Position numbers and translations under genes: made by a program. A DNA stretch of 64,000 nt. Source: Diadema setosum. Taxonomy: Eukaryota > Echinodermata > Echinoidea > Diadematoida > Diadematidae. The notes under the pieces were generated by a model. That model was not told the DNA's origin. It did not search any database and was given only the letters and a program-made list of their open reading frames with translations. The DNA is taken from NCBI RefSeq assembly GCF_964275005.1, contig NC_092705.1, positions 21,273,723 through 21,337,722 on the forward strand, in the 5' to 3' direction. This document shows positions 5,940 through 50,194 of this stretch, one piece after another (position 1 is the stretch's first letter; each line of letters opens with the position of its first letter).

Positions 5940-5971
5940 TATGTTTTATTCGTGTCAACCGGACGACAAAG

Positions 5972-6727
5972 ATGTTGTACACATCCCTAAGAACAGTCAT
6001 GGCGCTTTTTGTGACATTTCTGGTCTTTGGAACTATGTTTATGACCACTTTGACCTTGGAATTGGATCCACAACCTGCCAGTCTGATATACACACGGACC
6101 GAGCTGCTTAACCTTCGCTGCGCTACGGCGGATAACCTACCTACTGGGTATAAGGACTTCCCGAGTGATATTAAACCACGTAAGCGAGGTAAGCGGGGCG
6201 GGATCAGGACACGGATCAGGAAAAGGGGTACAAAGACATCCCTTCCCACGATTATTCTTGGAAATGTACGTTCATTACCTAACAAGATGGAGGAACTTGA
6301 AACATTAACTAGGTATATGAATGAATATAGAGATTCTAGTCTCTTAGCTTTCACTGAAACTTGGTTGAACGATAGTATTCCTGACAGCGCCGTTGAAATC
6401 CCCCATTTCCACCTCGTGAGAGGGGATAGGACTGAAGAGTCAGGGAAAAAGAGAGGAGGGGGTGTGTGTTTGTACATCAACAAGAAATGGTGTCAAAATT
6501 GGTCATTGAAATATACTGTATGCACGCCAGATATTGAACTCATCACGGTAGGACTACGGCCCTTCTATCTCCCCCGTGAGTTTCCACAGATCTTTGTAAC
6601 AGTAGTGTACATACAACCACGAGCTGATGTTACTGTAGCGAGCGAATGCTTAGCAGAAAAAGTACAACAACTGGCATCTGGGTCCCCCGATGCCCCCATT
6701 CTCATCATGGGCGACTTCAATCAGTGA
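5972..6727 (+). pseudogene. LINE polyprotein, leader and endonuclease part
   Basis: This frame has a hydrophobic leader (residues 10-28), then TLELDPQP (residues 28-35) resembling a degraded 2A-type motif, then a basic stretch rich in RKRGKRGG (about 70-86). The endonuclease follows, with LGNVRSLPNKMEEL, the FTETWLND motif and GDFN near the end. The endonuclease should continue to an SDH-type motif, but the frame stops right after GDFNQ and resumes in another frame at a TDHL motif. By family expectation about 50 residues of the endonuclease C-terminus are missing. The endonuclease nicks target DNA to prime reverse transcription; this copy probably cannot. Confidence 0.8.
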
Positions 6728-6729
6728 TC

Positions 6730-7836
6730 ACTGATCATCTTAACGTACAACTATTGCCGACCTATAAACCGAGACTGAAACGCTGCAGACCGGTTACCAA
6801 GCAACGATATGCCTGGACAGATGATCCTACTGAGAAACTCCGTGCTTCGCTTGACTGCACGGATTGGGATATATTGTTCGATTCAGCCGATTCACTGGAA
6901 GAGGCCACGGACATAATCTCCAGCTACATTAAGTTCAACGTTGATGCCATCGTGCCCCGAAAGATTTTTAAGGTTTACCCAAATAATAAGCCCTGGGTAA
7001 CAAAGGAACTTAGGGACCTGTTAAAGGAAAAGAATGCTGCATTAACAGGAGGTGATAAAACACGTGTAAAGGTGCTGCAAAAAGATATAAAAAGACAGAT
7101 TGATAAGTGTAAGCTGTCATATAAAGAGAAGCTGGAAAGAAACTTCAGTGAAAATAACCCGGCTTCTGCATGGAGAACAATGGACATGATCACAGGGTAT
7201 AAACAGAAGTCGGCTACCGTCGACTTCGAGGTCACACAAACTTTTGTAGATGATTTAAATGATTTCTTTTGCAGATTTGAGGTGGACTTCACCCTGCAGA
7301 ATGAGGCTATTGTTTGTAGTTTAAGAAATGCACTAACTGAAATGGGTTCTGAAAACTATGTAAACCTCACTGAACACGAGGTTAGGGTTGTGCTTGGTTC
7401 AGTGCGTCTTAATAAGGCCCCTGGGCCTGATGGTATCAGCAACAAAATCCTTGCCCTATGTAAGAGTCAACTATCGGGTATCTTAACTAAGATATTCCAA
7501 TGTTCATTAGACCATGGATCTATTCCCCGCCTATGGAAGATGTCATTAATCAAACCCATCCCAAAGAAAAAGAAGGCATCGGAGTTAAATGACTTCAGAC
7601 CGATCTCACTTACCTGTAGTGTGATGAAGTGCTTTGAGAAGGTAGTACTAAAACATCTTCTTAACTACTCTTCCTCTCAAATCGATCCCATGCAGTTCGC
7701 ATACAGAGGTAAGAGGGGCGTCGAAGATGCAGTTTTAACATACTTGCACAAAATGTACTCCCACTTGGACAAAAGTAAGACGTATGTAAGATCTACCTTT
7801 GCTGACTTCTCTAGTGCATTTAACACTATATTGTAA
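6730..7836 (+). pseudogene. LINE polyprotein, linker and N-terminal reverse transcriptase
   Basis: The frame continues from TDHL through a lysine-rich linker (NNKPWVTKELRDLLKEK) into the reverse transcriptase fingers (KAPGPDGI, FRPISLT) and motif A (FADFSSAFNTI), which supplies the first catalytic aspartate. The frame closes directly after motif A, and the protein continues in a different frame at about 7845. That marks a 1-2 base frameshift near 7835 in a functional domain. Confidence 0.85.
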
Positions 7837-7844
7837 CTCACCTT

Positions 7845-8774
7845 TTGATACAAAAATTGATTTCTTTTAATGTGCCCCCTCAAATCATCCTTTGGATCCA
7901 AGATTTCCTCAGTAACCGACCTCAGAAGGTTATAATGGGTAATGTTCAATCTAGTATGAAAATTTTGAACACAGGAGCACCGCAAGGATGCGTCCTGTCC
8001 CCGGTACTTTTTTCATTGTACACCAGTGACTGTCGATGTTCCTCAAACCAGTGTAGCATCATAAAATACGCAGATGATACTGTCATCACAGGTTATCTTT
8101 CATCTGATGATATTGAAGCATACACCAGCACAGTTGAAAGTTTTGTAAAATGGTGTGATGATCATTTCCTACTGTTAAATGTGTCGAAAACAAAGGAGTT
8201 GATCATAGATCACAGACGTAATGCCACTGAGCATAGGGCAGTTACAATTCACGGGGTAGTAGTGGAACAAGTCCAGGAATACAAGTACTTGGGTACGACC
8301 ATAAGCAACTCACTAAACTGGTCAAAAAATATTGAATCATTGCAGAAAAAAGCAAATCAGAGGCTTTACTTCGTTAGGACCCTGAAAAAGCTCCATGTGG
8401 AAGACAGACTTGTTGCTCTATTCTACAACTCCATCATTGAGAGTGTTCTAACTTATAATATTGTGTGTTATTTTGCCCAAGCAACAAAATGTGATTTGAA
8501 GAAGCTAAATCGTCCCAGAAAAATAGTCCAACGCTTATTAGGGCTATACTTCCCATCCCTTGATGATGTCTATCAAGAGAGAGTTGCTTCCATACTGCGG
8601 AAGATTATGCAGGACCCCACCCACCCACTCAACGAAAACTTTACCTTCAACTGTTCAGGTATTCGCTTGTGTGTTCCACGTACTCAGAAAACCCGTTTCA
8701 GGCAATCGTTCATCCCTAACGCCATACATCTCTATAATGCGCAGGTCCGAAGGTCTGTGTCACACCCGTCATGA
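7845..8774 (+). pseudogene. LINE polyprotein, C-terminal reverse transcriptase
   Basis: The frame carries the reverse transcriptase palm motif GAPQGCVLSPVLFSLYTSD (about 7974-8030), motif C YADDTVI (about 8068) with the catalytic aspartate pair, and the following EYKYLGTTI and thumb/connection region. It ends near a C-terminal RRSVSHPS. With the preceding frame it makes a near-complete reverse transcriptase, interrupted only by the frameshift at the junction. Confidence 0.88.
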
Positions 8775-13004: not shown

Positions 13005-13936
13005 TATGACAGTGCCGACCGTGGATTACATAATGCATAATCAGCTGATAATGCCCTCTATACACACTCGCAATCAGCTGTATGAATTATCTCTTTACAG
13101 ACCTATCTTGATTAATAAACAGTGATATTAAAGTTTCTAAATAAGTGAATTAGGCCTACTCTGATTCGTTTACAGTGTCAAGAATATTGTTTCAATAAAC
13201 TCTAACAAAGAAGCGGGAACATTTTAGCAAACAATAAATGATCTTGAAAAAAAAAATCCCCGATGTTATCAAAAATGACGGCATAATTGATGTAAAAAAC
13301 CCATCGGAGAAGGTCATGTGGTCATGACGAAATAAGCGTAAATCTACATACACATTGAAGCTCCAAACAGAAGGTTGAATGGTCACATGAAAAACTTCGA
13401 GAAGTTTCAGTTGTGAGCTTTCAAACTGCACTAAACATCCCGGCAAATTTCCTTAGTTTGAGTGGGAAGTTTCGGGATGTTTCAGACCACATAGGCAACA
13501 TTCTAAGATCCTAAATGATTACGTTAACCCGCATCTGTATGTACATTGATAGGACCTACATGAAAATTGGTTACCTTTTCAGCTATATATTGTAGTATTA
13601 TCTCACAAATCTCGCAAAATGAAAGATACGACCCACGACAGAAAAATGGTACCTGGAAATCATTAAATTTCATCGACATGGCACTTTATATCCATTTCTA
13701 ATCTCAACAAAAAAAGAAGAAATATAAGATATCCTGATATAATATTGATAAGGATATCCTGACAACCTAAAAACACATAGGTGCCTACTATACGAATATA
13801 CGCACACATACAAATTTGTAGCTAAATCATCCTACGTATGCAGTATTACCATCTTAGATGTTCAACGTCAATCAATCAACCTTAATATCAGCTGCACGCA
13901 TGTCTCCACCATCCCCTCAACCGTCACCATCTTCAG
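13005..13936. other. Stretch before the RanBD gene, nothing recognised
   Basis: No convincing exon, promoter motif or repeat was recognised. Upstream exons of the RanBD gene could lie here or further left but could not be identified. Confidence 0.4.
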
Positions 13937-14260
13937 CGTCAAGCAAGCCCCTTCACTTTTTCCAATATCGGTGCACCAGTGCAGGGCAGCGCTGCCATCA
14001 GTGGACAAAGATATTCATGAAGAGGACGACCCCACAACGAACCAAAAATGGTTTCTCTACAGCACATCGACGACATGACTGCCAACGGCGAGGTACGTGA
14101 GGAGGTTGAGAAGGTGCTGTTCTGCCAACGTGCCAAACTCTTCCGCTTCGACCGCAACGCCAAGGTTTGGAAAGGTTGCGAAGTCGGTGACATCAAGATT
14201 GTGACGAACCCAAAGACCAACCATGCTCGCATCCTCATGAGAAGAGACCAGAACTTTGAG
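13937..14260 (+). CDS. RanBD 1, N-terminal half exon
   Basis: The frame from ATG 14048 reads into KLFRFDRNAKVWK, VGDIKIV and ILMRRDQNFE, the first half of a RanBD, and ends at a GTAATA donor after 14260 in phase 0. The canonical WKERGVGD is WKGCEVGD here. Upstream, the same frame holds a nucleoporin-like SPFTFSNIGAPVQGSAA (about 13949-13999). A neighbouring frame holds an acidic VDKDIHEEDDP (14001-14032), as expected just before a RanBD. The two do not join in one frame: a stop in the ATG frame at 14018-14020 separates them. An assembly error, an unseen intron or a real lesion could explain this. The ATG is probably internal. Confidence 0.75.
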
Positions 14261-17200
14261 GTAATAATTATGTATTTCTAATTTTCAAAGAGAAGGAAAT
14301 TCATCTGAATATTACATTCTGACTTCATAGACTGTCCAAACTTAAGATGTGTCTAATATTCCATGCGTGAGCAGTGACAATACAATAAACTGAAGGAAAA
14401 GTATGCATATTGCAGTTTGGCGTGATGTCTTTAAATACGAAACATCATTAAAAATAGACATAAGAAGACAGAGGTACATATTCGAAAAGCCAAGGTGTAG
14501 TGTGAAAAACAATGTGTAAGAGTCTGTTAAATTATCTATTATTATGACTTTCATCTAAACAGGATTGTATGGATAAGCAAACATTCAACAGAATGATGAC
14601 TAAACATTTATCCACCACTCATGCTAAACATTACAAGAATCTTATTGTGTCACTAGTTGCAATAGATGTGAAGTATGTGGGTGTGTACTGTATGGGTTGC
14701 GATACGTTTGAAAAGTAATCGTGTTATTGTAAATGATAAGCAGCCTGTCTAAAACTTAACCAGTTGCGGATCCAGAGGGGGCGCAACCGGCGCATGCCCC
14801 CCTTTATTTTTCGTTAAAAACAAAAGAAAAACAAAAGAAAAAAATTGAAATGAAACCCGGAAGTGGCACCAGAAATATTAGTCCCCCCCCCCCCCCCTTT
14901 ACAGAATTCCTGGATCCGCCCCTGTTTGCATTATGACATGTGGTGGTGCTGTGGTCAAGTGGGATGCGTATCACACTATAATACGGGAAGTATTTCCACA
15001 GTTAAAGCGCCCTCGCTTCCCTATCTCCTCATCAACATAACATTCCCGCCCACAGCTGTGTGTCAACCAACGCATAACAGCAGAGATGGTGTTGGAGCCC
15101 ATGTTGGCCTTGGAAACCGCTTGGGTGTGGACCGCCAGCGACTTCGGTGAGGATGAGTCCAGGTTGGAGCAGCTGGCTGTCAAATTCAAGCACGCCGACA
15201 CGGCGCGTCAGTTCAAGGAGATGTTCACCAAGGCGCAGGAGATGATCGCCGATAAGGAGCCTGAGGCAAGCCAAGATGTTACAAACAAGGTACAAACAAA
15301 CAAAAAATACAAAAAACATATCTGTATATTTTGTATGCGCGTTTCTGCATTTCATTGTGCCAATAGATCATTTATTTTATGTATATATATATATATATAT
15401 ATACATATATGAGATAAGAGGAAGAAAGGAGAAATCGGTGCGTAGCTTTGACATCATTATTCCTCTTACTGTTCCTCCTTTTCGGCAAAGCGCAAGAGTT
15501 GAAAAATTGGTCTCCACCGGGAATCGAACCCGGGTCTTTGGCATGGAACGCCAACGCCTTATATATATATATTTTTTTTTCCAGAAATAAAAAAGCAGTT
15601 TAAAGTGTTGTTTGGTCCGCAAAGTTGTGCAGGGTAGAATTATCCTTGCCAAAAGCCCTCCCACAAGGAATTGAAAACAAAAATGTTGATGCTCTTTATC
15701 CTTTGCAGCTGAGCCCGGATCCAACGGTGTTTCGCACTTTCCTCTTGGAGCAGAACCAGCGATTGGTGCAGAGGGAGGAGAAACTCCTGGAGTCCAACCA
15801 GGAGCTCATGAAACAAGTTCAGGGACTCATGAAACAAGTCCAGGAGCTCATGAAACAAGTTCTCCAGCTCACGGTATTTTGGTATCATTTCCATGGCAAC
15901 GGACTGCTGTTCTGCCTGTATGAGTGCAGTTGTTGCTGCCATGGTGGTGGTGATGACAATATTGTTTGCTGCTTGATCTTAATCTTCAACCTATGTGTTC
16001 TTTGAGCTGGCAGTCAATTGGGATGATGTTAATGTTTCTCAATGTTTGAATAACTGCCAAGTTATGAAAGAACATTTTGTGGAGGAAATACATGATTATG
16101 GTTGGTATGTTGAAATGAAGGTGTCGCTATGAAAATTTCATTCAATTAAAGTAATTCGAACGGATGTATCAAGACAATTCGCTTGCAACCCAGTAATTTA
16201 GAGTGGCTGTTAGCTGTTTAATTTGAAAGTTAAATCTGTTGCATTATTTAATCTACCTATGATGCCATGTCGTTTGACATGCGTTACCCTTTCTGAATCA
16301 CAGTGAACTTGATAACAAAACTGCCGAATTTTCAGTTTTGCAAACTTTTTGTTCTTGACAGTTATTGTTGTTGTTATTGTTGTCGTTTTTTAATACCAAT
16401 TGATGGTCAGATTATCCCTGACGACTGTTCATATAGTATTTACTTTTCATGGAAAGTTTGTTTTCGTTGTGTGACCAGAGAGACCTTCGGGAAATGAAAC
16501 TCCAGCAAGAAGTGATCGGCATGCGACTTCCAACCACGCCCATCGTCCCGCCCCAAAACCAGGGGGCTCCCCTATCTACCCAGCACACAACTCCAACCAC
16601 CCAGCCCACGAGTCAAGCCACCTCGCCTCCGACTCAGGCCGCTCAGCACACGACTCAAGCCACCCAGCACACGAATCAAACCACCCAGCACACATCTCCA
16701 GCCATCCAACCCACGATTCCGGCCACCCAGCCCACGACTCCAGGAACCCAGCCCACGATTCCAGCAACCCAGCCCTTGACTCCAGCCACCCAGCCCATGA
16801 CTCAAGCCACCCAGCCCATGACTTCAGCCATCCAGTCCATGACTCCAGCAACCCAGCCCATGACTCCAGCGACCCAGCCCATGACTCCAGGCACACAGCC
16901 CATGACTCCAGCTACCTGGCCAAAAACTCAAACCACCCAGCCCATGACTCCAGCCATCCAGTCCATGACTCCAGCAACCCAGCCCATGACTCCAGCGACC
17001 CAGCCCGTGACTCCAGGCACACAGCCCATGACTCCAGCTACCAGGCCAAAAACTCAAACCATCCAGCCCATGACTCCAGCCACACAGCCCATGACTCCAG
17101 CTACCTGGCCAAAAACTCAAACCAACCAGTCCACGACTCAAGCCACCAAGCCCATGACTCAAGCCACCCAGCACACGACTCAAGCCACCCACCCCATGAC

Positions 17201-20200
17201 TCCAACCACACAACCCTCGACTCCGGCCACACAACCCACGACTCAAGCCACACAGCCCAAGACTCCGCACCATCCACAGCAGCTTCTGTTGAATGAAAGT
17301 ATGGCAGAAGTAGAGCCAGATCTCAGATGTTAATTTCTTTACACTTTTGTTTCTAAATTGTTGTACCCATTTTTTTTTTAAATATTTCTAAGTATTCATA
17401 CAAGTGTACCCCATATACTTGTTTAAAATTAATGAAAGTACTATTGGTAAACAGTAACTGGAATCGTACTTTCAGATGCTTATGATTTCGATAGGAATTA
17501 AAAAAACAAAACCAACTAGACATTGCAACGATATTACAATCATAACTATTTTCTGATGGAAATAAGAAAATTTCTCTTCTGATTTGCTGCTCATGATGTG
17601 ACTCTGAGAATTTTGGCATTGCACCGAATCGTTGATTTGCGGACAGATGATTAATCCCGCTTTGCTTTCTTCATTTTCGAAATCACAGTTCAAAGGTTAA
17701 ATGAAATGAAAATAGAAATAAGATTTTAGATTCTTGCCAGGCTGCTGAGTTTTTCGCTGTGCAGGCTTTCACCCTATAATTGAGATGTGGCATAGAATTT
17801 ATTGGATGATATTTTCTTGTGTAGAACCGGTGTCACCTACCAGTGGAGGGAAGGTGAACCCAGAGAAGGACAGAGACGTCCACCCCATCGTTCAGCTCCC
17901 AGAGAAAGTTGACCTTGTTACTAGGGAGGAAGGGGAGGTTGCCGTCTTTTCGGCTCGTGGCAAACTCTACCGCTTCCACTCTGCCTCGCGTTCATGGAAG
18001 GAGCGCGGCGTCGGGGACATCAAGATTATGCACGCGCCGGAATCGGATGCCTACCGCGTGGTGATGCCCTGTAACCAGGTATACAAAGTCCGCGCCCACC
18101 AAAACACCACGGCCACGACGCTGCATCCCTTGTCCGACAACGACCGGTGGTGGGTCTGGCACGCCATAGATGCTGCTGACGGTGAGCCTGACTCCGAGCA
18201 AACGGCGATCCGCTTTAAGGAGAGCACCACGGCTACTTCCTTCAGGGAGGCCTTCGAGCGGGCGCAGGGAGCATTGCGGCAGAAGGCTGGTGATGCAGGT
18301 CAGGAAACGGTTACCACGTCTACGGCTGAAGGGGCCTCGGCGAGTAAGACGGTAGATGGTGCCATGGCAACTGACTCCAGCCAAGGTGCTTAATATGAGA
18401 AATTTATTGTCTGCACGTCTGGAAACCTTCATTCACATTTTTTTCCATTTTAATTGGAATTTAAAACAAAACAAGTAGAAATTGGGGCGATATTACAATC
18501 ATGAATATGAATATTTTCTGATAAGAATAAGAAGATTTCTCTTCTCATTTGCTGCTCATGTGACTCTGAGAAATTTTGGATTGAACGGAATCGTTAATAT
18601 GCGAACAGATGTTAACCCCGCTTTGCTTTCTTACATTTTCGAAATCATAATTCAGAGATTAATAATACGCAATCAGAAACTTAGATTAGATATTCTATTG
18701 CGTAGAACCGGTGTCTTCTACTGGTGGAAAGGAGATAAACCCAGAGGAGAGAGACAACCACTTCGACCCCATCGTTCAGCCGCCAGAGAAGGTCAACCTT
18801 GTTACCGGTGAGGAAGGGGAGGTTGCCGTCTTTTCGGCTCGTGGTAAACTCTACCGCTTCCACTCTGCTTCGCGTTGGTGGAAGGAGCGTGGCGTCGGGG
18901 ACATCAAGATAATGCACTCGCTGGAATCGGATGCCTACCGCGTAGTGATGCGCCGCGACCAGGTAAACACAGTCTGTGCCAACCACTACATCACCACGGC
19001 CATGACGCTGCAACCCATGTCGGGCAGCGACCGGGCGTGGGTGTGGCACGCCATGGATGTTGCTGACGGGGAGGCCGTCTCTAAGCAGCTGGCGATCCGC
19101 TTCAAGGAGAGCATCACGGCTGTTTCCTTCAAGGAGGCGTTCGAGCGGGCCCAGAAAGCATTGCGGCAGAAGGCTGGTGATGCAGGGCTGGAGACGATTA
19201 CCACGTCAACGGCTGAAGAAGCCTCGGCGAGTAAGACGGTAGATGGTGCCATGGCAACTGACTCCAGTCAAGGTGCTTAATTTGAGGAATTTATTGTCTG
19301 CACGTCTGGAAACCGTCATTCAGATGTTTTCCCCCATTTTAGTATGAATTAAAAACAAGACAGTGAAATTGGGGCAATATTACAATCATGAATAATGATT
19401 ATTTTCTGATAGAAATAAGACGATTTCTCTTCTTATTTGCTGCTCATGTGACTCTGAGAAAGTTTGGATTGAACGGAATCATTAATATGCGGACAGATGT
19501 TAATTTTGCGGACAGATGATAAGCTTGCTTTATTTTCTTACATTTTCGAAATCACAATTCAAAGATTACGCAATTAGAAACTTAGATTTTATATTCTTGC
19601 CAGGCTGCTGAGTTTTTTTGCTGTACAGGATTTCTTCCTATAACTGAGATGTGGCATAGAATGAACTAAACTGGATAATATTTTATTGTGTAGAACCGGT
19701 GTCATCTACTGGTGGAGAGGAGATAAACCCAGAGGAGAGAGACAACCACTTCGACCCCATCGTTCAGCCGCTAGAGAAGGTCGACCTTGTTACCGGTGAG
19801 GAAGGGGAGGTTGCCGTCTTTTCGGCTCGTGGCAGACTCTATCGCTTCCACTCTGCCTCGCGTTCGTGGAAGGAACGTGGCGTCGGGGATATCAAGATTA
19901 TGCACGCGCCGAAATCGGATGCCTACCGCGTGGTGATGCGCCGCGACCAGGTATACACAGTTTGTGCCAACCACTTCATCACCAAAGCCATGACGATGCT
20001 GCCCATGTCGGGCAGCGACCGGGAGTGGGTGTGGAACGCCATGGATGCTGCTGACGGGGAGGCCGTCTCCGAGCAACTGGCGATCCGCTTCAAGGAGAGC
20101 ACCACGGCTGCTTCCTTCAAGGAGGTCTTCGAGCGGGCCCAGGAAGCATTGCGGCAGAAGGCTGGTGATGCGGGGCAGGAGACGATTACCACGTCTACGG

Positions 20201-23200
20201 CTGAAGAAGCCTCGGCGAGTAAGACGGTAGATGGTGCCATGGCAACTGACTCTAGCCAAGGTGCTTAATATGAGGAATTTATTGTCTGCACGTCTGGAAA
20301 CCTTCATTCAGATTTGTTTTCCATTTTGATAGGAATTAAAAACAAAACAAGTAGAAATTGGGGCGATATTGCAATCATGAATATGAATATTTTCTGATAA
20401 AAATAAGAAGATTTCTCGTCTTATTTGCTGCTCATGTGACTCTGAGAAATTTTGGATTGAACGGAATCGTTAATATGCGAACAGATGTTAACCCCGCTTT
20501 GCTTTCTTACTTTTTCGAAATCATCAGATTAATAATACGCAATTAGAAACTTAGATTTTATATTCTTGCCAGGCTGCTGAGCTTTTCGCTGTTCAGGCTT
20601 TCTTCCAATAATTAAGATGTGTCATAGAATTAATTGGATGGTATTTTATTGTGTAGAACCGGTGTCATCTACTGGTGGAGAGGAGATAAACCCAGAGGAG
20701 AGAGACAACCACTTCGACCGCATCGTTCAGCCGCCAGAGAAGGTCGACCTTGTTACCGGTGAGGAAGGGGAGGTTGCCGTCTTTTCGGCTCGTGGCAGAC
20801 TCTATTACTTCCACTCTGCCTCGCGTTCGTGGAAGGAGCGTGGCGTCGGGGATATCAAGATTATGCACGCGCCGAAATCGGATGCCTACCGCGTGGTAAT
20901 GCGCCGCGACCAGGTAAACACAATCTGTGCCAACCACTACATCACCAAAGCCATGACGATGCTGCCCACGTTGGACAGCGACCGGGCGTGGGTGTGGCAC
21001 GCCATGGATACTTCTGACGGGGAGGGTGTCTCTGAGCAGCTGGCGATCCGCTTCGAGGAGAGCACCACGGCTGTTTCCTTCAAGGAGGCGTTCGAGCGGG
21101 CGCAGGAAGCGTTGCGGCAGAAGGCTGGTGATGCGGAGCAGGAAACGGCTACCACGTCTACGGCCGAAGGAGCCTCGACGAACATGGCGAGTAAGGCGGC
21201 AGATGGTGCAACGGCAACTGAATCCAGCCAAGGTGATATAAAAATATGAGGAATTTATTGTCTGCACGACCTTATACCTCTTTGTTCACCCCGGGAAAAA
21301 CAATAAGAATATTATCTATCCCGTAGCAACCTCCAAAAACTACTAGAGGGACTCTTGATCTATTTAACACAGTCCCCTGCGAGCATCTCAAACGTAGGAT
21401 GTAAAATTTTGTGCTTGAAAACATTACGTTCCTATTTCTTATTGTCATCGTGATGTTATCGGTTTCGCAGGAGATGATCCCAACACGCCAGAGGTTCGGT
21501 CATGTGACCCGATACCGACAAGTGGGCTTACAGATGCGCCTAGAGCTCTCTCCCCCACGAGAGAGGCAGCTGGGTCTCCATCGTCTGCCGAAGCAGGAGT
21601 AAACAAACCAGGTAAAATTATCTAACAAAGAGAGGAATAATGCTGCCGAGTAATCTTGAGTAAAAGAGCAATATGACATCCACCTGTCTCCCCCAGAAAT
21701 TCATACAAGTGCCATTTATTGGCCAGGTTGACACAAGTCTGAATAAAAAACGAGTTTTTGTCTTCAATAATAAGTACAAAAATTAGTTTGTGAAATATGT
21801 TTCCCTTACCAAGTATCGACCGGTACTTTTGAGAGACTTATTACAACAAGATATTGGTTATGTCCTCGAGACTGAAGAGCTTATCGTTGCACGGATGTGT
21901 AATTGAATTAATAGGATGAATTCGATTATTTAGGACCAGTCTCGTCTACTGGTGGAGGGGAGGTAAACCTGGAGCAGGAGAGATTCATCTACGTTATGCT
22001 TTGCCATGTATTATGTTTGTGGTGGCCTTCCATAGACGTTACCGTCTTGGCGTGGAAAATTTGACCCTCTGCATTCTAGCTTTCAACTTCAGTGGAACTG
22101 TTGATGTGTTTTTTTTTTTTAAACTTTGTGTCAGACAAGTCTCAACAAACTGTGAACAACAGAAGTTCTCAAGAATTTTAAAGCCATTTCCCACACAGCA
22201 TCATAACTATGACCGACGATTGCATAACAAGTTTTTGTTACCTCGGTTGAAGGCAGGAGCACATGTCCTCATTCTTGCATAATTAACTGCTTGTCCTCTA
22301 ACAAGTTACTTGCCTTGCAGTATCATGGGGAACCCAAAGTGGTGTGAGCGTTGTGTTTGAAGTCAAACGTTACTGTCAGGCTAAGAAAAACTTTGTTGAT
22401 GTCTTGTTGCTATCAAATACGTGTCAGTAAATATTTGCAACATGCCTACGCTTATCGTAAAGAGAAATGTGTAAAAATAGGGCGTTTACGGAATTAATCC
22501 AGTATGACCTTGTTTGACTTTTGTCTTTGTTTTTGAAAGATGCGAGAATGGCCACTGCTCAGTGCTTCTAGATTATCGGGTCCACTGTGTAGGTAATACC
22601 AAGGAGGTTTTATGCATGGAGTTCCAACTGGATGTAATTATTCAAACAGTTGTCAGATTTATATTGATGTACAAAAGAATTCCACCATTGCACTTGTGCC
22701 TTTGATGATCGATGTTCGACGCCGCTGTCTTGCTGAGCAATCTGAACATTCATTTTGATCGTTATAATGTTGGCCATATTTTGCTTATCTATTTATTAGA
22801 TGAAATGAAATTTCACTTAATGATAAAGCATATCTAAAACAAAAGTCCAGAAAGTCCAGAAATTTGTGCAACAGCGTAAATCAGAGCTATATCATGTAAA
22901 AATGTTTAAAACTGTACCATCCTGGGAAGCTGGATTTATCACTTTTCCGCTTTATTTCCACAAATGAAACTTATATGGAATAATCTTCAAGTATTAATTC
23001 TTTCTTGATAGATATATCAGATTAGTGCCCGGGTATGCCCAGTCGAGCAATTTTCATCTTTATTTCAGCATTTTTTTGCTCAATTTCTATTCGCGCATCC
23101 TCGTGTCTGTACCACCTACCTTTTTATAAGAAGGGATAGCGAAAAGTAATTACCATCACAAAGACATATCTTCCTTTGAAAGTGGCTGGTGATTATGCAA

Positions 23201-26200
23201 TGAGACACGAGTCAATTGTCTTCGTATCTGCGCGGCAGATCCTGTTTGGCACATGCTTCAAATATTTTTTAGCGGCGGTTTCGAACATCTAGCAAAGTAA
23301 TTAAGACGGTTGTGACTCCATTCCCCGCATTCTCTACAACCTCCTTGGTAATACAGTATGAGTAAGGTATTGACTGCAAGCGCGTACGTACAGTAGGTAT
23401 CGACTAGCTATGATTCTCACGCATGCAAGTACATTCGTTCCAACTAGGTGACTGCAGGGATGAAGGATATATCGCTCTCTCTTTCCTTTTTTAAGTTTGT
23501 AGGATTTTTTTTTAGATGAAAGTATGTAGTTATGTATGTATCTACGTCATTTTGATTTACTTACCTAGTCACTTAACATTTACCATTCTAATTAAGTCAT
23601 GACCAACTCCGCTAGCTTAGAAAGTTCTGTAAAACCTGGTTGCCCAGACAACCACTCCGAAGCCCCGTTTCCGTGCTGTACACATGTATGAGACCACACA
23701 CGTTTCCTCGTTCTTTTGCCGGTACTACGCGTTTCGGATCTCCCCATTAGTTCTTCGACAGCTGAGCAGTGGCCTGATATAACTTTTTTTTTTTCCGACT
23801 CCACTTTCCTGTCGCTTTTATGTCTTTTACAAAGTACAAAGTCTATTTTTAACCCTCGAAATTCGTACTGTCTATGTTCTCTCTCGAATTGCTGTCTGCG
23901 ATCGAATTATAAGCCCTTTTAAGGGCTCCGTTATCGGTAGTCATGTCTCCCAATGACAAGGTAACAAAGCAAGCAATTATAAGGCTGCCCTGACCATGCT
24001 ACCCTGGCACACAGAGTCCGAAGTACCATCCAATGGTTCTATTTAACACAGTCCCATGATGAGAGCATTCCAAACGTAGGATGTAAAATTTTGTGCTTGA
24101 AAACATTACGTTCCTATTTTTTATTTTGATCGTGATGTTACCGGTTTCGCAGGAGATGATCCCAACTCGCTAGAGGTTCGGTCATGTGACATGATATCGA
24201 CAAGTGGGCTTACAGATGCGCCTAGAGCTCTCTCCCCCACGAGAGAGGCAGCTGAGTCTCCATCGTCTGCCGAAGCAGGAGTCAACAAACCAGGTAAAAT
24301 TACACAACAAAGAGAGAAATAAAGTAATCACGAGAAAAAGAGCAATATGACTCCTACCTGTTACCCCTAGAAATAATTCATCCAAGTGTCATTGTTTGTG
24401 ATTTGGCAGGGTGCTCCGAACCTGCTGGCTCGTTTTTACGGGACTATTGCTGAAGCACTTCACCCCCTTTTACACTTTCACGGATTGCTTCACAGATGAC
24501 CACGGATCGTCATCCGTGATGTTCCGGCATGCAAAATATTGATTTTCCCCTCAATGCCGGCATGGTCGGTGGGAATACGATCCCAACTGGGTGTCTACCC
24601 GGACAAATACGGAGTCTACACGGTAAAGTAAGGTGCTAAGCCCCTGTCACACTTTGCTGGATAGACCCACCGTACTCAAACGGGCGATATTTTGCTCATC
24701 CGTTGTTCAAATCGTCAATCCGGTGGACAAAGTGCAAAGTTTCCGTTTTAGAGGAGCGTACGTGCACGGTATAGGCGCCGCACCGAACGAAGAAACAACG
24801 ACCCTGAGGCGATTGTGTACAGGACAGTTAAAAGTGCGCAAACGAAGCAGAAACGAATATGAACAGCTTGCCCACAGGACAAAACGCACGAGGAACAAAT
24901 AGGTGACGCATGAGATGTACATCGAACGTCAGATATCCATTGATGTGACTGCTATCGGGATATACAATTTGGAGCGTCCACCACTCGACCAGTTCTGCTT
25001 CTACTACCTGTACACTTCACTTCACATATCATAAATAATATCAGCTACCATCAATATGCCAAGGGATCGAAGGCCAAGACTTCTCAATATGTTGGCTACT
25101 TGTTGCTAGACTTTGACACCGCTTTCTTCATTTTGGTCCCAAATATCACGTACATGCAGATTTACCCAAAAGTTTCTCACTTTACACAAAATCACTTTCA
25201 TTCATGCCCAATGCTACTTCACAAATTTAACCTTCTCTATTTTTGTTTCTTATTGATTTTTTTTTTCAGATGTTCTTTATAACGATTAACAGCCGGATGA
25301 TTGTCTTGATTTTCTCAAGTAAAGGCACATAATATTCTTCATTGAACTCATCCATTGCATTTTAAGATCATGAAGTCATGATACACTATTTTGACATTCA
25401 GAATATCAATGTCAGCAATACATTTTTCAAATTTGGACATTGACTCAAGGTTTGAACCAGTCTCTATTTTCTCTCAAACAGCTCATTCTCAAGTCAAAAT
25501 TCACTCATAACTTGTAACCTGTGAATATCCAACAGTTTATCTCAGCCGAAGCCCAGTCATATCGAATATACTTCATTGCCCCATGATAGCAAATCTGATC
25601 AAGGCTGTCATTTTTGCTAGCAAAACCTAGTGTATTATAGGTGATGATAGTTATGATTGCTTCCATAAATTTGGTTCAGATCTCTGCAGTTCCTCAGTAT
25701 ATAGTAAACTGACTGGAAATCTTGCTTTTCTGGAAGACTTGTCGTCCTGTCACAGAGGGGTATGAAGTCCCCCCCCCCCACCCCCCAAGCAGATGATGGT
25801 CTTTCCGACCTTGAAACATATGGTGCATTTTGCTTTCTTTTTGATGTGTCTCTCACCTTTTTACCTGAACCACAACATTTGCTTGGTAAATTCGGGGAGA
25901 CTTAGCAAAAGTAGCTCGATTTTGTTTCGACTTTGTGTCTATGACAATTGGTCATACAAACCAAATTGCCTGTCTCTCTCAGGACCACTTTGCCACTTCT
26001 TGGACCGCATCTGCCTTCTCTGTTGCTTACTTTCCCTCCTCCATGCGCCAATATACTCCTGGAGTGCCATGTTGGCATTCTGCAGCAACGAACTCTACGG
26101 GAGGCCTAGCGGATCAAAACGAGAGGAAAGTGACGCGACAAAGTACAGTACAGATACAGGAGAAAACGTGCAACTATAGGACAAGGGTAGTATCGCGCTT

Positions 26201-29200
26201 TCCGTTTTTGGCGAGGAAAAACTTTGTGCATGCACAAAGTTTTTTGACCGCTCTGACGAACATCCCCGGAAGACAAACGTCCATCCAAAGGATAAAAAGG
26301 ACATCAAACGCATTTTAACGGATATCAACGGATGCCAAAAATCGACGTTCGGTTCCCATGCGTTTGCCTTATCCGGCAAAGTGTGACAGGGGCATAACAT
26401 ACAGACAAGGAATGATTGCGGACCACAGCGGAAAGGATGCGGAGCTAACACAGATATCAAGAAAGAGCACGGATGCAACTGGGTCCCTTCTCAGTCTTTA
26501 CACGGATATCCCCAAAATGTTGACAGATAACATTTGCTTTTGCTTTTGACACTTCATCACTCTCGGGTGACATGCCTCCACGAGTTAAATATAACAAGCA
26601 CACTATAGCAGCAGCCTACATACGCCTCTGCTTGTCGACATCATAAGGCAAATCTCTTTGTTGCGGGAACATCATGACAGAAGCAAAGCGAAACAAAACA
26701 AAACAAATCAAAACACAAACAACTGCAAGAGATATGTGTGGATCACTCAAGCTTCTCAGGCGACCACTATGCGAACAGTATGAGGGGTCGATGGCTGTAC
26801 TGATTGGGGAAGATGTGAACAAATCTCATGGACTTTATGAGCTTGTATTGGCAAAATACATTGTACATGAATTTTTCATCCCGGATGAAACCGATGCTGA
26901 TACGAACGTCCCGATGTCTTCGAATTCGCGGATTGTCCCGGAATGAGTACGGAGGCAACACGGAGTAGTCGGTGCCTACAAGGAAGTAATACGGAGGCAC
27001 CACAGAGTAGACGGTGCCAACAAGGAAGAGTTCGTATTGATTTTCATCTGTAATGTCCGGGATGAAAAATTAAGCAAGCTTAATTTTGTCCGCGGACATG
27101 CCGGATGATCAAGGATAATGCCGGATGACTTCACGGAGTCAACACGGTCATGCCGGAAACAGTACGGATGATCCAGGATCGAGGATCCGTGGTCAACCGT
27201 GATGCGATCCGTGGAAGTGTATTACCCATTTGACTCAAACAGGTCTACTTAACAGTAGACCTCCTCACCAAGATCGGTTTTCTAATAATCCACAGGAAGT
27301 CTCAGCTGCATCAAAACGGATCCAGAATTTTTAGGCGCAAAACTGGATCTGCAGCACCAACTAGCACGACCATTTCCACACAGGATACAAAGAGGAAGAC
27401 AAATGGCATTTGCTGGCTTGCTTACTTGCTTGTTTTCTTGTTTCATTTCCATATGGAAAGATGGCTGGATAGCCCATATTCAGCAGCAATAGCTGGTCTT
27501 CCATGGAGTCCAATAGGATGTTAGGCGAGACCGCTCTCCATTCTGACTAGCCAAACAAAATGCAACATCCCAACACTAGCTTCGGTTCTTGGGCCTCCTG
27601 GCAAGTCTCAACAAAGACACAGTTCCAGAATGCAGACGGAGACTGGAGAAAATTCAAATAGATCTCCTTAGGCAGTATCGTCCCCTCGGGAAGCCTATGG
27701 GTCTAATCAAAAGCATTATCAGTCTGACGAAAGCAAAAGGCAGAAGCCCTTCGTATACGGATCTACCGTCAATATCTTCAGGTCGGGAAGTCATTTTTGC
27801 AGCCAACACAATCTCTTACAGTGTTTTCAGACGGGTCTAGGGCAATTACCCCCTGGGCAATTACCCCAGACCCTTCCCCTGAGCCTAACCTAAATCCTGA
27901 ACCTAAACCTAACCCAAACTCTAATCTCTTTCTGCTTGTCATCCCCGCTGAAAATGTTTAAAGTTAGGTGGAGGGAGCAGCTAACTTGTGTACCTGTCAT
28001 TTTTTAGATCACGCTCCACCCGATGATGAAGACCACGGAGAAGAAGAAGAAAAAGAAGAAGAAGAAGAAGAGGAAGAAGAAGAAGAACGGGAGGAGGAGG
28101 AGGAAGGAGAGAAAGATGAGGCGGGAGATCATGAGGATGATGACGATGAGCATTACGAGGAGGTTGGCGATGATGAGGATGATGGTGAGTATGCCTACAA
28201 AGATGACGAAATGGATAACGACGACTAGCAAAAACTTATACCATTCATTTTGTTTCCACATTAAACACAACATATCAATCATGACGTGGGTTTTTACAAT
28301 GTTGTGGTATTAGGTTTCTAGCAATCATTGAAAAGAAAAGTGACTACAGGAAAGTCTAAAGAAGCTTAAATAATCAGTTAGAAAATTGATACCCTGCAAC
28401 TTTATCTTGTTTTGGCAGTAAAATAGTTTATATCCTTTCGTGTAGCTTCGTGCATTGAAGCAAACTTTCTTTGTCTTGTTGAAGGACTTTTATCATTTAG
28501 GGCCTAAGTTGCTTTTTTTTTTTTATCCTGTTTTGATGAGAACATCAAATTCGACTATGTTGAGTGCATTTCTCCAGAGAAAGATTGGGATTGAGGGATG
28601 TGCAGCCTAGCAAGTAAGATTTGAAAAGGATACCATGATAATGCATAGGCTAAGACTGCATAAATTTTCTAATTGCGCTGAATGTCTCGTGATACTGCAG
28701 AGAGAATCTGATTGCATTTAATGACTCCGATGAATAATGAAACTAATTGCATACAATCGGCATTTAATAAAAACCCGGACCGAGTTATATGTACAGGCGT
28801 ACAGTATAAGTCAAGTGATAAATGTACAGTAATATTGTATAAATTATGAACGCAAGTACTCGTTACAAGGTAATATATTGTATGAAACTCATGTGAAATC
28901 AGGAAATTAGAGTTGTTGATCCATCAAATAAATGGGTGGGGTGAGACTGCACGTTGGTAAGTGTCCTTGGAGGACCAGGGCGTGAGTATACCCTGTATAT
29001 CCATATCTTCCTCTTCGCTTTTTTTTTAATTCTACATCCTCAATTTGTCTTGAAAGTCTCTTTTTCTGCTTGTCATCATCCCCGCTGGGCTACCCGATAA
29101 AAAGGTTTCAGGTAAGGTGGAGGGGTCAGCTAACTCGTGCATTTGTCATTTTCTAGAACATGCTCAACCCGATTATGAAGACTACTACTACGAAGAAGAA

Positions 29201-29512
29201 GAGGAGGAAGGAGAGGAAGTTGAGGTGGAAGACGATGAGGATGATGACGACAACGGGTATGAGTACGAGGAGGATTGTGGTGGCCAGGAGGATAGTGACT
29301 TTGTCCTTGAAGATATCGAAGTGGACAGCAGTGACGATACTGGCGACGAAGACCATAAGAAACCTGGTCCATCCAAGTGGAATCGTATCGGCGATATATT
29401 TGCCAATTGGGGTAAGAGAGAAGATTCGGGATCATCACCACTATCTTCTCGAACATCATCACCACCATCTTCTCGGACATCATCGCCACCAAACTCGAGT
29501 AGTAGCAGCTAG
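13937..29512 (+). CDS. RanBP2-like protein with five Ran-binding domains (spliced gene, 5' end not found)
   Basis: Predicted exons: (13937?) 14048-14260, 15056-15289, 15709-15873, 16479-17298, 17825-18385, 18706-19272, 19694-20260, 20657-21232, 21471-21611, 24153-24293, 28008-28184 (or ending at the stop, 28228), 29157-29512. All have GT/AG ends and compatible phases, and total 4518 bases from ATG 14048 (1505 codons plus stop). RanBDs bind Ran-GTP and help RanGAP hydrolyse it during nuclear transport. Each RanBD shows the family hallmarks WKERGVGDIKI, VMRRDQV, CANHYIT and WVW. RanBP2/Nup358 also has several RanBDs, but no TPR, zinc-finger or cyclophilin segment was found here, so this could be a separate multi-RanBD paralogue or the 3' part of a larger gene. 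The exon model is a prediction without transcript support. Confidence 0.8.
14761..14924. mobile_element. 164-bp foldback repeat with GCGGATCCAG ends
   Basis: The left end CAGTTGCGGATCCAG and the inverse of the right end CAGGGGCGGATCCAG match at 13 of 15 positions. The interior contains A-rich and C-homopolymer stretches. It lies in the intron splitting RanBD 1. CAG ends recall hAT elements, but no 8-bp target duplication is evident. Confidence 0.55.
15056..15289 (+). CDS. RanBD 1, C-terminal half exon
   Basis: After a CCCACAG acceptor, 78 codons read LCVNQRITAEMVLEPM, then TAWVWTASDFGEDESRLEQL, AVKFKHADTARQFKEMF and KAQEMI, the second half of a RanBD with its conserved WVW and AxxF motifs. 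It ends at a GTACAA donor in phase 0. Joined to the exon ending at 14260 it gives one continuous domain. Splitting RanBD 1 by an intron contrasts with RanBDs 2-5, each in a single exon. Confidence 0.85.
15411..15558 (-). mobile_element. tRNA-derived SINE fragment (tRNA-Gly-like head)
   Basis: On the minus strand the sequence contains a perfect T-arm (CCGGG TTCGATT CCCGG) and an anticodon arm TTGGC-GTTCCAT-GCCAA with T33 and anticodon TCC (Gly). The D-arm and 5' acceptor strand are missing, replaced by a TA run. About 95 bases of unrelated body follow, ending in another TA repeat. This is the layout of a truncated tRNA-derived SINE, not a working tRNA gene. Confidence 0.65.
15709..15873 (+). 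CDS. Coiled-coil exon of RanBP2-like protein
   Basis: The exon follows a CTTTGCAG acceptor and has 55 codons, phase 0 at both ends. It reads FRTFLLEQNQRLVQREEKLL, then three near-identical copies of ELMKQVQ. The heptad-like hydrophobic spacing suggests a short coiled coil, possibly for oligomerisation (inference). The repeated 21-base DNA unit shows the segment grew by tandem duplication. The donor GTATTT is weak. Confidence 0.7.
16479..17298 (+). CDS. Thr/Pro/Gln-rich repeat exon
   Basis: The frame opens with RDLREMKLQQEVIGMRL, continuing the coiled coil, then becomes about 240 residues of seven-residue repeats of the type TQPMTPA. A 42-residue higher-order unit (126 bp, for example starting at 16828 and 16954) holds six such repeats and includes ATWPKTQT. 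Low-complexity Thr/Pro/Gln regions are probably disordered, and many Thr/Ser could be O-GlcNAc sites, as known for nucleoporins (inference). The donor GTATGG at 17299 gives phase 1, matching the next acceptor. Without splicing the frame runs to a stop at 17331. Confidence 0.7.
17825..18385 (+). CDS. RanBD 2 exon (divergent)
   Basis: A single 561-base exon, phase 1 at both ends (acceptor TTGTGTAG, donor after CCAAG). The domain shows KLYRFHSASRSWKERGVGD and RWWVWHAIDAADGE. The usual MRRDQVYTVCANHYIT segment is changed to VMPCNQVYKVRAHQN, losing the paired arginines and the CANH motif. These positions are highly conserved in RanBDs, so Ran binding may be weakened (inference). Its Ser/Thr-rich tail ends SSQ, like the other copies. 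Confidence 0.85.
18706..19272 (+). CDS. RanBD 3 exon
   Basis: A 567-base exon, phase 1-1. It begins (E)PVSSTGGKEINPEERDNHF and reads VFSARGKLYRFHSASRWWKE, VVMRRDQVNTVCANHYIT and DRAWVWHAMDVADGE, followed by AIRFKESITAVSFKEAFERA. All RanBD hallmark residues are present. The donor is AAG|GTGCTT, weaker than consensus; if it is unused, translation would stop two codons on at TAA. Confidence 0.88.
19694..20260 (+). CDS. RanBD 4 exon
   Basis: A 567-base exon, phase 1-1, nearly identical to RanBD 3 at DNA and protein level. It reads LYRFHSASRSWKERGVGDIK, VVMRRDQVYTVCANHFIT and DREWVWNAMDAADGE, with intact hallmark motifs. The donor is again AAG|GTGCTT with an in-frame TAA just beyond. Confidence 0.88.
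20657..21232 (+). CDS. RanBD 5 exon
   Basis: A 576-base exon, phase 1-1. It reads LYYFHSASRSWKERGVGDIK, VVMRRDQVNTICANHYIT and DRAWVWHAMDTSDGE. The usual LYRF is LYYF here, and the tail has a small insertion (TNMASKAAD). The donor is AAG|GTGATA, and the following intron no longer matches the other units, so this is the last whole member of the array. Confidence 0.88.
21471..21611 (+). CDS. Linker exon 1, Ser/Pro-rich, 47 codons
   Basis: The exon lies between TTTCGCAG and GTAAAA, phase 1-1. In the frame set by its neighbours it reads (G)DDPNTPEVRSCDPIPTSG, then LTDAPRALSPTREAAGSPSS and AEAGVNKPG. The phase and a near-identical second copy support it as coding. It is Ser/Pro/Ala-rich, probably a flexible linker; no domain was recognised. 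A different, unused frame begins at an ATG inside it. Confidence 0.75.
21934..21998 (+). pseudogene. Relic 5' part of a sixth RanBD exon
   Basis: After a TTTAG acceptor-like site, about 60 bases match the start of RanBD exons 2-5 (frame PVSSTGGGEVNLEQERF). The similarity then ends and no RanBD core follows. Its position between the two linker exons suggests that a block of RanBD plus linker was duplicated and this RanBD copy decayed. Confidence 0.7.
22000..24034. other. Intronic stretch, nothing further recognised
   Basis: About 2 kb inside the gene 1 intron between the linker exons, after the RanBD relic. No exon, RNA gene or inverted-repeat element was recognised. Confidence 0.45.
24153..24293 (+). 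CDS. Linker exon 2, near-identical to linker exon 1
   Basis: Same length (141 bases), phase 1-1 and splice sites (TTTCGCAG / GTAAAA) as linker exon 1. It reads (G)DDPNSLEVRSCDMISTSG, then LTDAPRALSPTREAAESPSS. At least 100 bases of both flanking introns are also duplicated (21350-21730 and 24035-24390). The few differences are substitutions that keep the frame open, supporting it as a real exon. Confidence 0.75.
24473..27219. mobile_element. 2.7-kb inverted-repeat element flanked by TA, host of a nested element
   Basis: The left end and the reverse complement of the right end share CACTTYCACGGAT, then TGACCACGGATC, CATCCGT and TTCCGGCATG in the same order over about 80 bases. TA flanks both ends (24471-24472, 27220-27221). 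CACT ends recall CACTA elements, and a TA duplication recalls Tc1/mariner; the family is unresolved. No transposase frame was seen. It sits in an intron of gene 1. Confidence 0.65.
24640..26394. mobile_element. 1.75-kb element nested in the 24473-27219 element
   Basis: The ends are GCCCCTGTCACACTTTGC followed by YGGATA, inverted at the right, with TAA at 24637-24639 and 26395-26397 as likely target duplication. The 3-bp TAA fits PIF/Harbinger-like elements (inference). No transposase was recognised. Its insertion inside the other element makes it the younger of the two. Confidence 0.7.
27841..27925. repeat. Partial copy of the GGGTAATTGCCC foldback repeat
   Basis: Starts with two GGGCAATTACCCC motifs, then degenerate CCTAACC units. 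It matches the right half of the 2691-2878 element in the opposite orientation. The other terminus is absent. Confidence 0.6.
28008..28228 (+). CDS. Acidic exon 1 (internal or alternative last exon)
   Basis: After a TTTTTAG acceptor (phase 1) the frame reads (D)HAPPDDEDHGEEEEKE, then an almost unbroken Glu run and Asp-rich DDDDEHYEEVGDDEDDG. It can stop at TAG 28226-28228 (ending KDDEMDNDD), making it a last exon with ATTAAA at about 28260. Alternatively a strong GTGAGT donor at 28185 in phase 1 lets it join acidic exon 2. Acidic tails like this are common in histone and nuclear-transport binding proteins; a function here is not shown. Confidence 0.72.
29157..29512 (+). CDS. Acidic exon 2, C-terminal exon
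   Basis: After TTTTCTAG (phase 1) it reads (E)HAQPDYEDYYYEEEEEEGEE, then a second acidic stretch. The C-terminus differs from exon 1: PGPSKWNRIGDIFANWGK followed by a Ser/Pro tail (SSRTSSPPSS repeated) and TAG. Its beginning parallels acidic exon 1 (HAPPDDED versus HAQPDYED). The conserved-looking WNRIGDIFANWGK could be a short binding peptide (inference). Candidate polyadenylation signals AATAAA lie at 30781, 31197 and 31763. Confidence 0.75.
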
Positions 29513-30010
29513 AAGTGTGAATATTATTTGGTAGAATTGAAAGAAGATGCAAACTGATTATATTGTTTATGTGCCTATCACATAGTGCATTAGACTACAA
29601 GTTTGCCTACAGTAAATATCGTATATACTGAATCATCTTCCCTCCACTGCCAGTGGTTGTCATGGCAATATTATATCAATTACTTTCAAGAGGAGCAGCT
29701 CGAAGATGGAATCTTGAAAGAAGTCCAGAGGAACTACAAATCATGGTAGGCTAAATGTGATCATTTGACTGCAAAACGTTGCATGGTACTGTCGTACTGG
29801 TACTATCCTATCTTTATCACAGTAAGCCCACTGATATTGATAATCTTAAGTCATTGGCCCGTGGTTTTAGAAACTAGAGTCAGGCCTTTTAAAGGAGAGA
29901 GGACATCATATCTCCAAGACGTCAAAGACACTTGTATGTTTTAGACTGCATTATGCCAAGTGATATGTTGTGAGTAAACCTCACCACAGCTGGTCAGCAG
30001 CCTTGGAATG

Positions 30011-30102
<92 letters not shown>

Positions 30103-41927: not shown

Positions 41928-42248
41928 TTACGAGCCCACATACCACTGCAGTAGCACAGCTATGAGGATCGCTATGACAAAGATGCAGAACATGATGATA
42001 CCGGCGAGCTGACTGTCCCCCCATGACTTCTTCTCTGTGTCCATCACCCCCTCGCCGTCCACCTCCGTCAGCGGCGCTTCTTCCTCTTCGTCCGGCGAGC
42101 TCGTCGTCCACGTGGTCCACGAGCTGTAGATGCCCTGGAGCTCGGGTGAGCCGTCGCTGGGCACGCGGATGGCCTGCACGCGGAAGCGGTGCTCCGTGTT
42201 CAGCTCAAGGTGGTCCACTTTGTAGCAGGTCTCGGAGCCCCGGTAGAT
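41928..42248 (-). CDS. FNDC3: FNDC3 last coding exon: end of FN3, acidic linker, membrane anchor
   Basis: After CATCCTAG it reads IYRGSETCYKVDHLELNTEH and FRVQAIRVPSDGSPELQG, the second half of the last FN3 domain, then TSSPDEEEEAPLTEVDGEG and the hydrophobic anchor before TAA at 41928-41930. The exon is clearly GC-richer than its surroundings. The anchor leaves only about five residues after it, as in a tail-anchored protein. Confidence 0.9.
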   Translation of the reverse strand: MYRGSETCYKVDHLELNTEHRFRVQAIRVPSDGSPELQGIYSSWTTWTTSSPDEEEEAPLTEVDGEGVMDTEKKSWGDSQLAGIIMFCIFVIAILIAVLLQWYVGS

Positions 42249-47224: not shown

Positions 47225-47271
<47 letters not shown>

Positions 47272-47320
47272 GTGTAATGTATCAACCTTCACAATAATGA
47301 TGATGATGATGATGAGCAGC

Positions 47321-47367
<47 letters not shown>

Positions 47368-50163: not shown

Positions 50164-50194
<31 letters not shown>

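Follow-up and report, generated by a model that had tools for sequence, protein, structure and literature searches.

RanBP1 has a single Ran-binding domain (RanBD). The RanBDs of RanBP2 (Nup358) release cargo from Crm1 export complexes, as set out in one report (PMC4866044). In apes RanBP2 has given rise through segmental duplication to the RGPD genes, eight dispersed copies on human chromosome 2; one account (PMC6920530) dates this expansion to a time when Old World monkeys had already split off and describes RGPD exons as being under positive selection, an arms race with viruses being thought possible. Here we describe a stretch of 64,000 nucleotides (nt) from the sea urchin Diadema setosum (NC_092705.1, positions 21,273,723 to 21,337,722; hereafter the window), in which an exon encoding a whole RanBD stands four times in a row within one gene model of a RanBP2-like gene cluster. 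Tandem exon duplication and RanBP2-derived families in apes are already known, and the array of RanBD exons in a RanBP2-like cluster may be the new part; neither such an array nor a RanBP2 cluster outside the apes was mentioned in the titles and beginnings of abstracts that our literature search covered, most subscription papers lying outside it.

The array consists of the following exons, in window coordinates:

E1: 17825-18385, plus strand, RanBD exon 1, 561 nt, phase 1-1, diverged
E2: 18706-19272, plus strand, RanBD exon 2, 567 nt, phase 1-1
E3: 19694-20260, plus strand, RanBD exon 3, 567 nt, phase 1-1
E4: 20657-21232, plus strand, RanBD exon 4, 576 nt, phase 1-1

Each of the four is an open frame preceded by AG and followed by GT, is entered at codon base 2 and is left after codon base 1. 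All of them match the Pfam family Ran_BP1 (PF00638) with 112-152 bits (E 2.6e-32 to 1.4e-44; curated cut-off 23.2 bits) from model position 1-2 to 120-121 of 122, that is, over the whole model, and E-values of this size rule out that they are chance open frames. Human RanBDs used as tblastn queries also match all four exons, and the best relatives of E3 among solved structures are human and Xenopus RanBP2/Nup358. Pairwise identity among the exons is 84.7-93.1%. The first-pass annotation of this DNA, which had proposed four whole RanBD exons of 561-576 nt in phase 1-1, was thus correct in positions, sizes and phases, and Pfam confirms the identity of the domain.

The history of the array is recorded mainly in its introns:

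I0, 3' part: 17458-17824, plus strand, native upstream part of the duplicated unit, homologous from 17458 to the introns between the exons
I1: 18386-18705, plus strand, hybrid intron
I2: 19273-19693, plus strand, hybrid intron
I3: 20261-20656, plus strand, hybrid intron
I4: 21233-21470, plus strand, native downstream intron; I1-I3 open with a 32-nt version of its first 36 nt

In I1, I2 and I3 (320-421 nt) the opening 32 nt correspond to the 36 nt with which I4 begins, and the sequence then runs as I0 does from 17458. The same hybrid junction in all three is the mark of one founding duplication, with units added later by exchange. The same exon is present as a single copy in all four of the other cluster genes that have a full RanBD exon (loci L001-L004, of which L004 has a stop). 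Upstream of these single-copy exons, the intron aligns by BLAST with the final 82-88 bases of I0 in 4/4 cases, at 79-81% identity; downstream, likeness to I4 starts at base 37 and was seen in L004 by BLAST and in L001 and L003 by eye. E1 therefore retains the native flank on its upstream side, and E4 that on its downstream side. With one junction shared by I1-I3 and with single-copy relatives whose flanking introns match, growth of the array by tandem duplication of phase 1-1 units, as first proposed, is strongly supported. The observation that the introns are as alike as the exons also stood: I1-I3 are 87.8-93.6% alike, with Jukes-Cantor (JC) distances of 0.067-0.133, against synonymous distances (dS) of 0.107-0.161 among E2-E4. 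E1 is the most distant exon copy, yet I1 is closest to I3 (JC 0.067), and the switch lies near the end of the exon, at column 562 of 996 (the maximum chi-square value was reached in 2 of 2000 permutations), which points to unequal exchange or gene conversion.

We considered whether the array is private to the window gene and rejected this, since a sister gene carries the same four copies:

Sister gene: C22:21154268-21169406 (C22 being the contig of the host assembly that holds the window), 133 kb from the window gene, four-copy array

The two genes are alike over window positions 13518-22599 (95.0%) and 23918-30024 (96.3%). The hybrid junction is found also in I2 and I3 of the sister; from its I1 the junction stretch is missing, and this intron differs by 8%, the other four by 0.8-2.5%. 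In the exon tree, E1-E4 each pair with their positional counterpart in the sister, the E3 pair with support of 90/92 and the others with at least 98/96, and this pairing implies that the array predates the gene duplication. Full concerted evolution since that duplication is contradicted by the same pairs, although the I1/I3 exchange is nevertheless seen. When L004 with its in-frame stop is left out, dS is 0.27-0.36 between the window copies and the single-copy exons of L001-L003, 0.24-0.26 between E1 and E2-E4, 0.11-0.16 among E2, E3 and E4, and 0.03-0.08 between window and sister. The duplication had earlier been called recent, and this holds only in a relative sense, the array being older than the duplication that yielded a sister also with exactly four copies. 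The number of RanBD exons has remained unchanged in both genes since they split. The Thr/Pro-rich exon upstream of the array (X2) measures 820 nt in the window and 778 nt in the sister (C22:21156686-21157463; L029:4686-5463), exactly two 21-bp units fewer; hence it is the 21-bp repeat, and not the RanBD array, that has changed in number since the gene duplication.

The likely course of events begins with an ancestral gene in which one intronless RanBD exon was flanked by phase-1 introns. A single tandem duplication, with breaks about 36 nt into the downstream intron and about 367 nt before the exon, would have created the hybrid intron, later unequal exchange between units would have led to four copies, and the whole gene would then have been duplicated together with its array. 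The duplication itself can be read from the sequence, while we infer the order of the steps. With every unit in phase 1-1, serial splicing of the four exons can give a single protein.

Around the array, the following features complete the gene model:

X0a: 14048-14260, plus strand, first half of a split RanBD (E0), found by tblastn with human RanBDs; starts at ATG, donor in phase 0
X0b: 15056-15289, plus strand, second half of the split RanBD (Pfam Ran_BP1, 3.7e-15)
X1: 15709-15873, plus strand, coiled-coil-like stretch, so labelled by eye, identical in the sister
X2: 16479-17298, plus strand, Thr/Pro-rich exon with 21-bp (7-residue) repeats, TQPMTPA-like heptads, ending in phase 1
G1: 21471-21611, plus strand, 141-nt phase 1-1 exon
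RanBD relic: 21894-21983, plus strand, intron end and the opening ~50 nt of another RanBD exon copy that breaks off there, 79% identical to the array
G2: 24153-24293, plus strand, second copy of G1, phase 1-1, 87.9% identical over 364 aligned columns around the exon
A1: 28008-28184, plus strand, acidic exon with a GTGAGT donor
A2: 29157-29512, plus strand, acidic last exon with a stop, second copy of A1, 72.9% identical over 177 columns

A fifth RanBD, E0, thus lies upstream of the array and is interrupted by a phase-0 intron; the ATG of X0a stands in a good Kozak context and is present in the sister gene too, as is the relic stretch. From the end of X2 onward all modelled junctions are in phase 1, and the chained model of 12 exons runs from ATG to stop over 1505 residues with five predicted RanBDs, a check of consistency rather than a proof, because exon edges were picked to fit the frame. 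A1 may run to its own stop (TAG) instead of being spliced at GTGAGT, because its likeness to A2 (28008-28228 / 29157-29512) crosses the proposed donor. The G and A exon types are each doubled in the window, where the order is E-G-G-A-A with the E relic between the G copies, as compared with G-E-A in four other cluster genes (R1-R4, below).

Serial splicing has one competitor that we regard as unlikely but as the best of the alternatives, namely that E1-E4 are mutually exclusive or cassette exons, so that the protein carries one or a few RanBDs. In other genes, mutually exclusive splicing has been associated with exons duplicated in tandem, and the four copies are all frame-neutral and differ in protein sequence. 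Frame-neutrality does not enforce exclusion, however, and introns of 320-421 nt would leave room for ordinary splicing.

Elsewhere in the window, a LINE-type element on the plus strand (5867-8774) has matches to reverse transcriptase and, below the cut-off, endonuclease-like ones, which lie in different frames, and an ALKBH8_N match at its end. On the minus strand, at about 41680-54901, open frames resemble fibronectin type III repeats and have a membrane stretch at the C-terminus; judged by eye, they are FNDC3-like. No tRNA was found in the window.

The search for RanBDs was extended to the host assembly (912.7 Mb, 102 contigs), the halves of split RanBDs being counted apart. All but two of the 46 matches (44/46) lie on one strand of C22 within about 400 kb (20.8947-21.2948 Mb); the other two are on contig C4. 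These two, the only matches off C22, are halves (C4:17289769-17291755, minus strand), perhaps of RanBP1. A RanBD match was found in 0/14 control genomes, which says little if these are, as presumed, prokaryotes, and no confirmed relative was found in the bacterial/archaeal (144 pattern stretches) or viral (4) contig collections, where none is to be expected. The stretches of C22 that were read are 20.87-21.08 Mb, 21.152-21.170 Mb and the window, and further RanBD matches lie in 21.08-21.152 and 21.170-21.274 Mb. Six RanBP2-like genes were mapped in the read stretches by the order of their domain matches. In R1-R4 this order is RanBD0 (lacking in R1), coiled-coil-like stretch, start of X2, IR1-M, RanBD a, zinc finger, RanBD b, G, E and A, with RanBDs a and b both split; in R3 about 32 kb separates IR1-M from RanBD a, so that it could be two parts, and R4 carries RanBD b twice, has part of a zinc finger and contains stops in both E and A. 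In the window gene, as in its sister, the order is RanBD0, coiled-coil-like stretch, X2, E1, E2, E3, E4, G, G, A, A. The IR1-M match in R1-R4 is below the Pfam cut-off of 25 (score 18.8, E 0.0015) and recurs four times, and a RanBP2-type zinc finger (E 3.7e-8) is whole in R1, R2 and R3 and present in part in R4; together they tie the cluster to RanBP2. A protein tree places the E exons with RanBD b (96/94) and shows them no clear counterpart among vertebrate RanBDs.

The pair of genes that bears the array is different in content. No IR1-M, zinc finger, RanBD a or RanBD b was found in it, and IR1-M gave no match in the window by plus-strand scans of 1-39 kb or by tblastn. Plus-strand scans gave no GRIP domain in window 1-39 kb, and no TPR or cyclophilin match there or in C22 20.87-20.90 Mb, where short exons may be missed. 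Among the single-copy genes, the RanBD exons of L001 and L002, 72 kb apart, are identical over 570 bp. The single-copy RanBD exon of R4 (L004:1409-1978; C22:21073050-21073619) contains an in-frame stop, as does its acidic exon match, and R4 is likely a pseudogene; L001 and L004 differ by 29 synonymous and 13 nonsynonymous codons and by 1 stop.

Ten of the 12 modelled exons (A1 and A2 left aside) were compared between the window gene and its sister, and all ten are in frame and free of stops in both. They differ by 41 synonymous and 53 nonsynonymous changes, which gives a ratio of the nonsynonymous to the synonymous proportion (pN/pS) of 0.39 (p 1.2e-5); the pair is under purifying selection. 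X0b and X1 do not differ at all between the two genes. The array exons pooled show the same (p 3.5e-5), as do E1, with 4/14 differences nonsynonymous (p 1.9e-4), and E3, with 4/10 (p 0.013), and the figure for E1 contradicts the idea that it is a freely drifting exon. Among the window copies, the ratio of nonsynonymous distance (dN) to dS is 0.34-0.62.

These figures bear on a second alternative, that the locus is a decaying pseudogene or that the cluster is partly an assembly artefact with haplotype copies placed end to end. R4 with its stops lends this some colour, and duplicated blocks of at least 2.5 kb in the cluster are 91-99% identical, which could be an allelic distance in a variable species. 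The conserved frame and the pN/pS of the window gene and its sister speak against decay, and the copies lie at different places on one contig and have differing architectures, so that we consider this explanation improbable, somewhat more so than alternative splicing of the array. The weakest proposal, that each RanBD exon is an alternative last exon whose modest GT goes unused, is very improbable: the frame does stop soon after the donor (two codons past it in E1-E3 and in the single-copy exons of the cluster genes, five in E4), but AATAAA occurs in 0/3 of I1-I3 (ATTAAA in 2/3), the donor GT is retained in 12/12 exon copies, and G and A exons are found in 5/6 and 6/6 mapped genes, A following E throughout; G precedes E in R1-R4, and in the pair it comes after the array.

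The domains have kept their core residues to differing degrees. The core was defined as the 44 columns that are invariant in eight human and Xenopus RanBDs; 38 of these residues are kept in E2, 37 in E3, 35 in E4, 33 in E1 and 30 in E0, as compared with 40 in the single-copy exon of R1 and 41 in its RanBD a. Of the 11 residues lost from E1, four belong to the MRR-Q and CANH stretches. Normal binding of Ran by E1 has probably been lost while selection keeps the exon, and the combination of constraint and lost core residues suggests some other use or another kind of binding. It is plausible that a change in the array would alter the number of working Ran-binding sites, although, given the state of E1, the count of exons need not equal the count of sites.

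Taken as a whole, we think it likely that the window gene is a RanBP2-like derivative without IR1-M and zinc finger, in which an array formed by tandem duplication supplies RanBDs in series that would bind several Ran-GTP molecules. The predicted protein of 1505 residues would comprise RanBD0, a coiled-coil-like part, a stalk of Thr/Pro repeats, four RanBDs and an acidic tail. Judging from the RanBD family, this protein, presumably soluble or placed loosely and carrying as many as five RanBDs, would act as a multivalent Ran-GTP binder that helps to strip Ran from transport receptors.

Several observations weigh against this account. Donors were scored only roughly, with a generic matrix in which about 93% of plus-strand GTs score below 5; those of E1-E3 (AAG|GTGCTT) reach only 5.3, a modest value, the other modelled donors scoring 4.1-9.9. 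A second phase-1 GT (CGA|GTAAGA/G, 5.7-5.9) is conserved 42 nt upstream of the donor in E1-E4 and competes with it; the exact 3' edge of these exons may therefore be either donor, and phase 1 would be kept with both. Neutrality is not rejected singly for E2 (13/20 differences nonsynonymous, p 0.16) or E4 (8/12, p 0.29), six of the seven differences in X0a are nonsynonymous, contrary to the trend, and the 95% interval of dN-dS spans zero in two of the six pairs of window exons (E1-E4 and E3-E4). Of the 44 core residues, RanBD0 lacks 14 and E1 lacks 11, and an AlphaFold model of E1, built on ten close sequences, was uninformative (mean pLDDT 33). A collapsed or falsely duplicated assembly is conceivable, and we infer splicing, expression and Ran binding of the window gene from its DNA.

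A wider interpretation can be put forward only tentatively, and we hold it to be rather doubtful: the cluster could be a second RGPD-like radiation, independent of that in apes, in which, along one branch, a repeated RanBD exon took the place of the SUMO-ligase motif, of the zinc finger and of two split RanBDs and so made a pore-independent multivalent Ran-GTP binder, with E1 selected for a job other than Ran binding. Because the ape expansion is placed later than the divergence of Old World monkeys, the cluster should be a separate event. If so, it would offer a natural test of what RanBDs do when separated from the pore and from the SUMO-ligase parts, and a clean example of globular-domain repeats gained by phase-1 exon duplication.

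Among known systems, the locus shares with RanBP1 the RanBD fold. It resembles RanBP2/Nup358 in having several RanBDs of the same family in one gene model, and its neighbours R1-R4 share IR1-M and zinc fingers with that protein. The window gene differs in that its scans (plus strand, 1-39 kb) gave no IR1-M or zinc finger and, with short exons perhaps escaping them, no TPR or cyclophilin match, and in that the four human RanBDs are spread with long spacers over residues 1159-3046 whereas E1-E4 are intronless serial copies. As in the RGPD family of apes, RanBP2-derived genes have been multiplied by segmental duplication, here to six mapped genes; unlike that family, the cluster is in one place, no GRIP was seen in the window scans, and one branch has multiplied the RanBD exon within the gene. 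The array itself conforms to tandem exon duplication, in which exon and intron are copied head to tail with the frame unchanged, and has a shared junction and single-copy relatives. Several abstracts on such duplication deal mainly with mutually exclusive exons, whereas here the repeated unit is a globular Ran-binding module that may be read in series.

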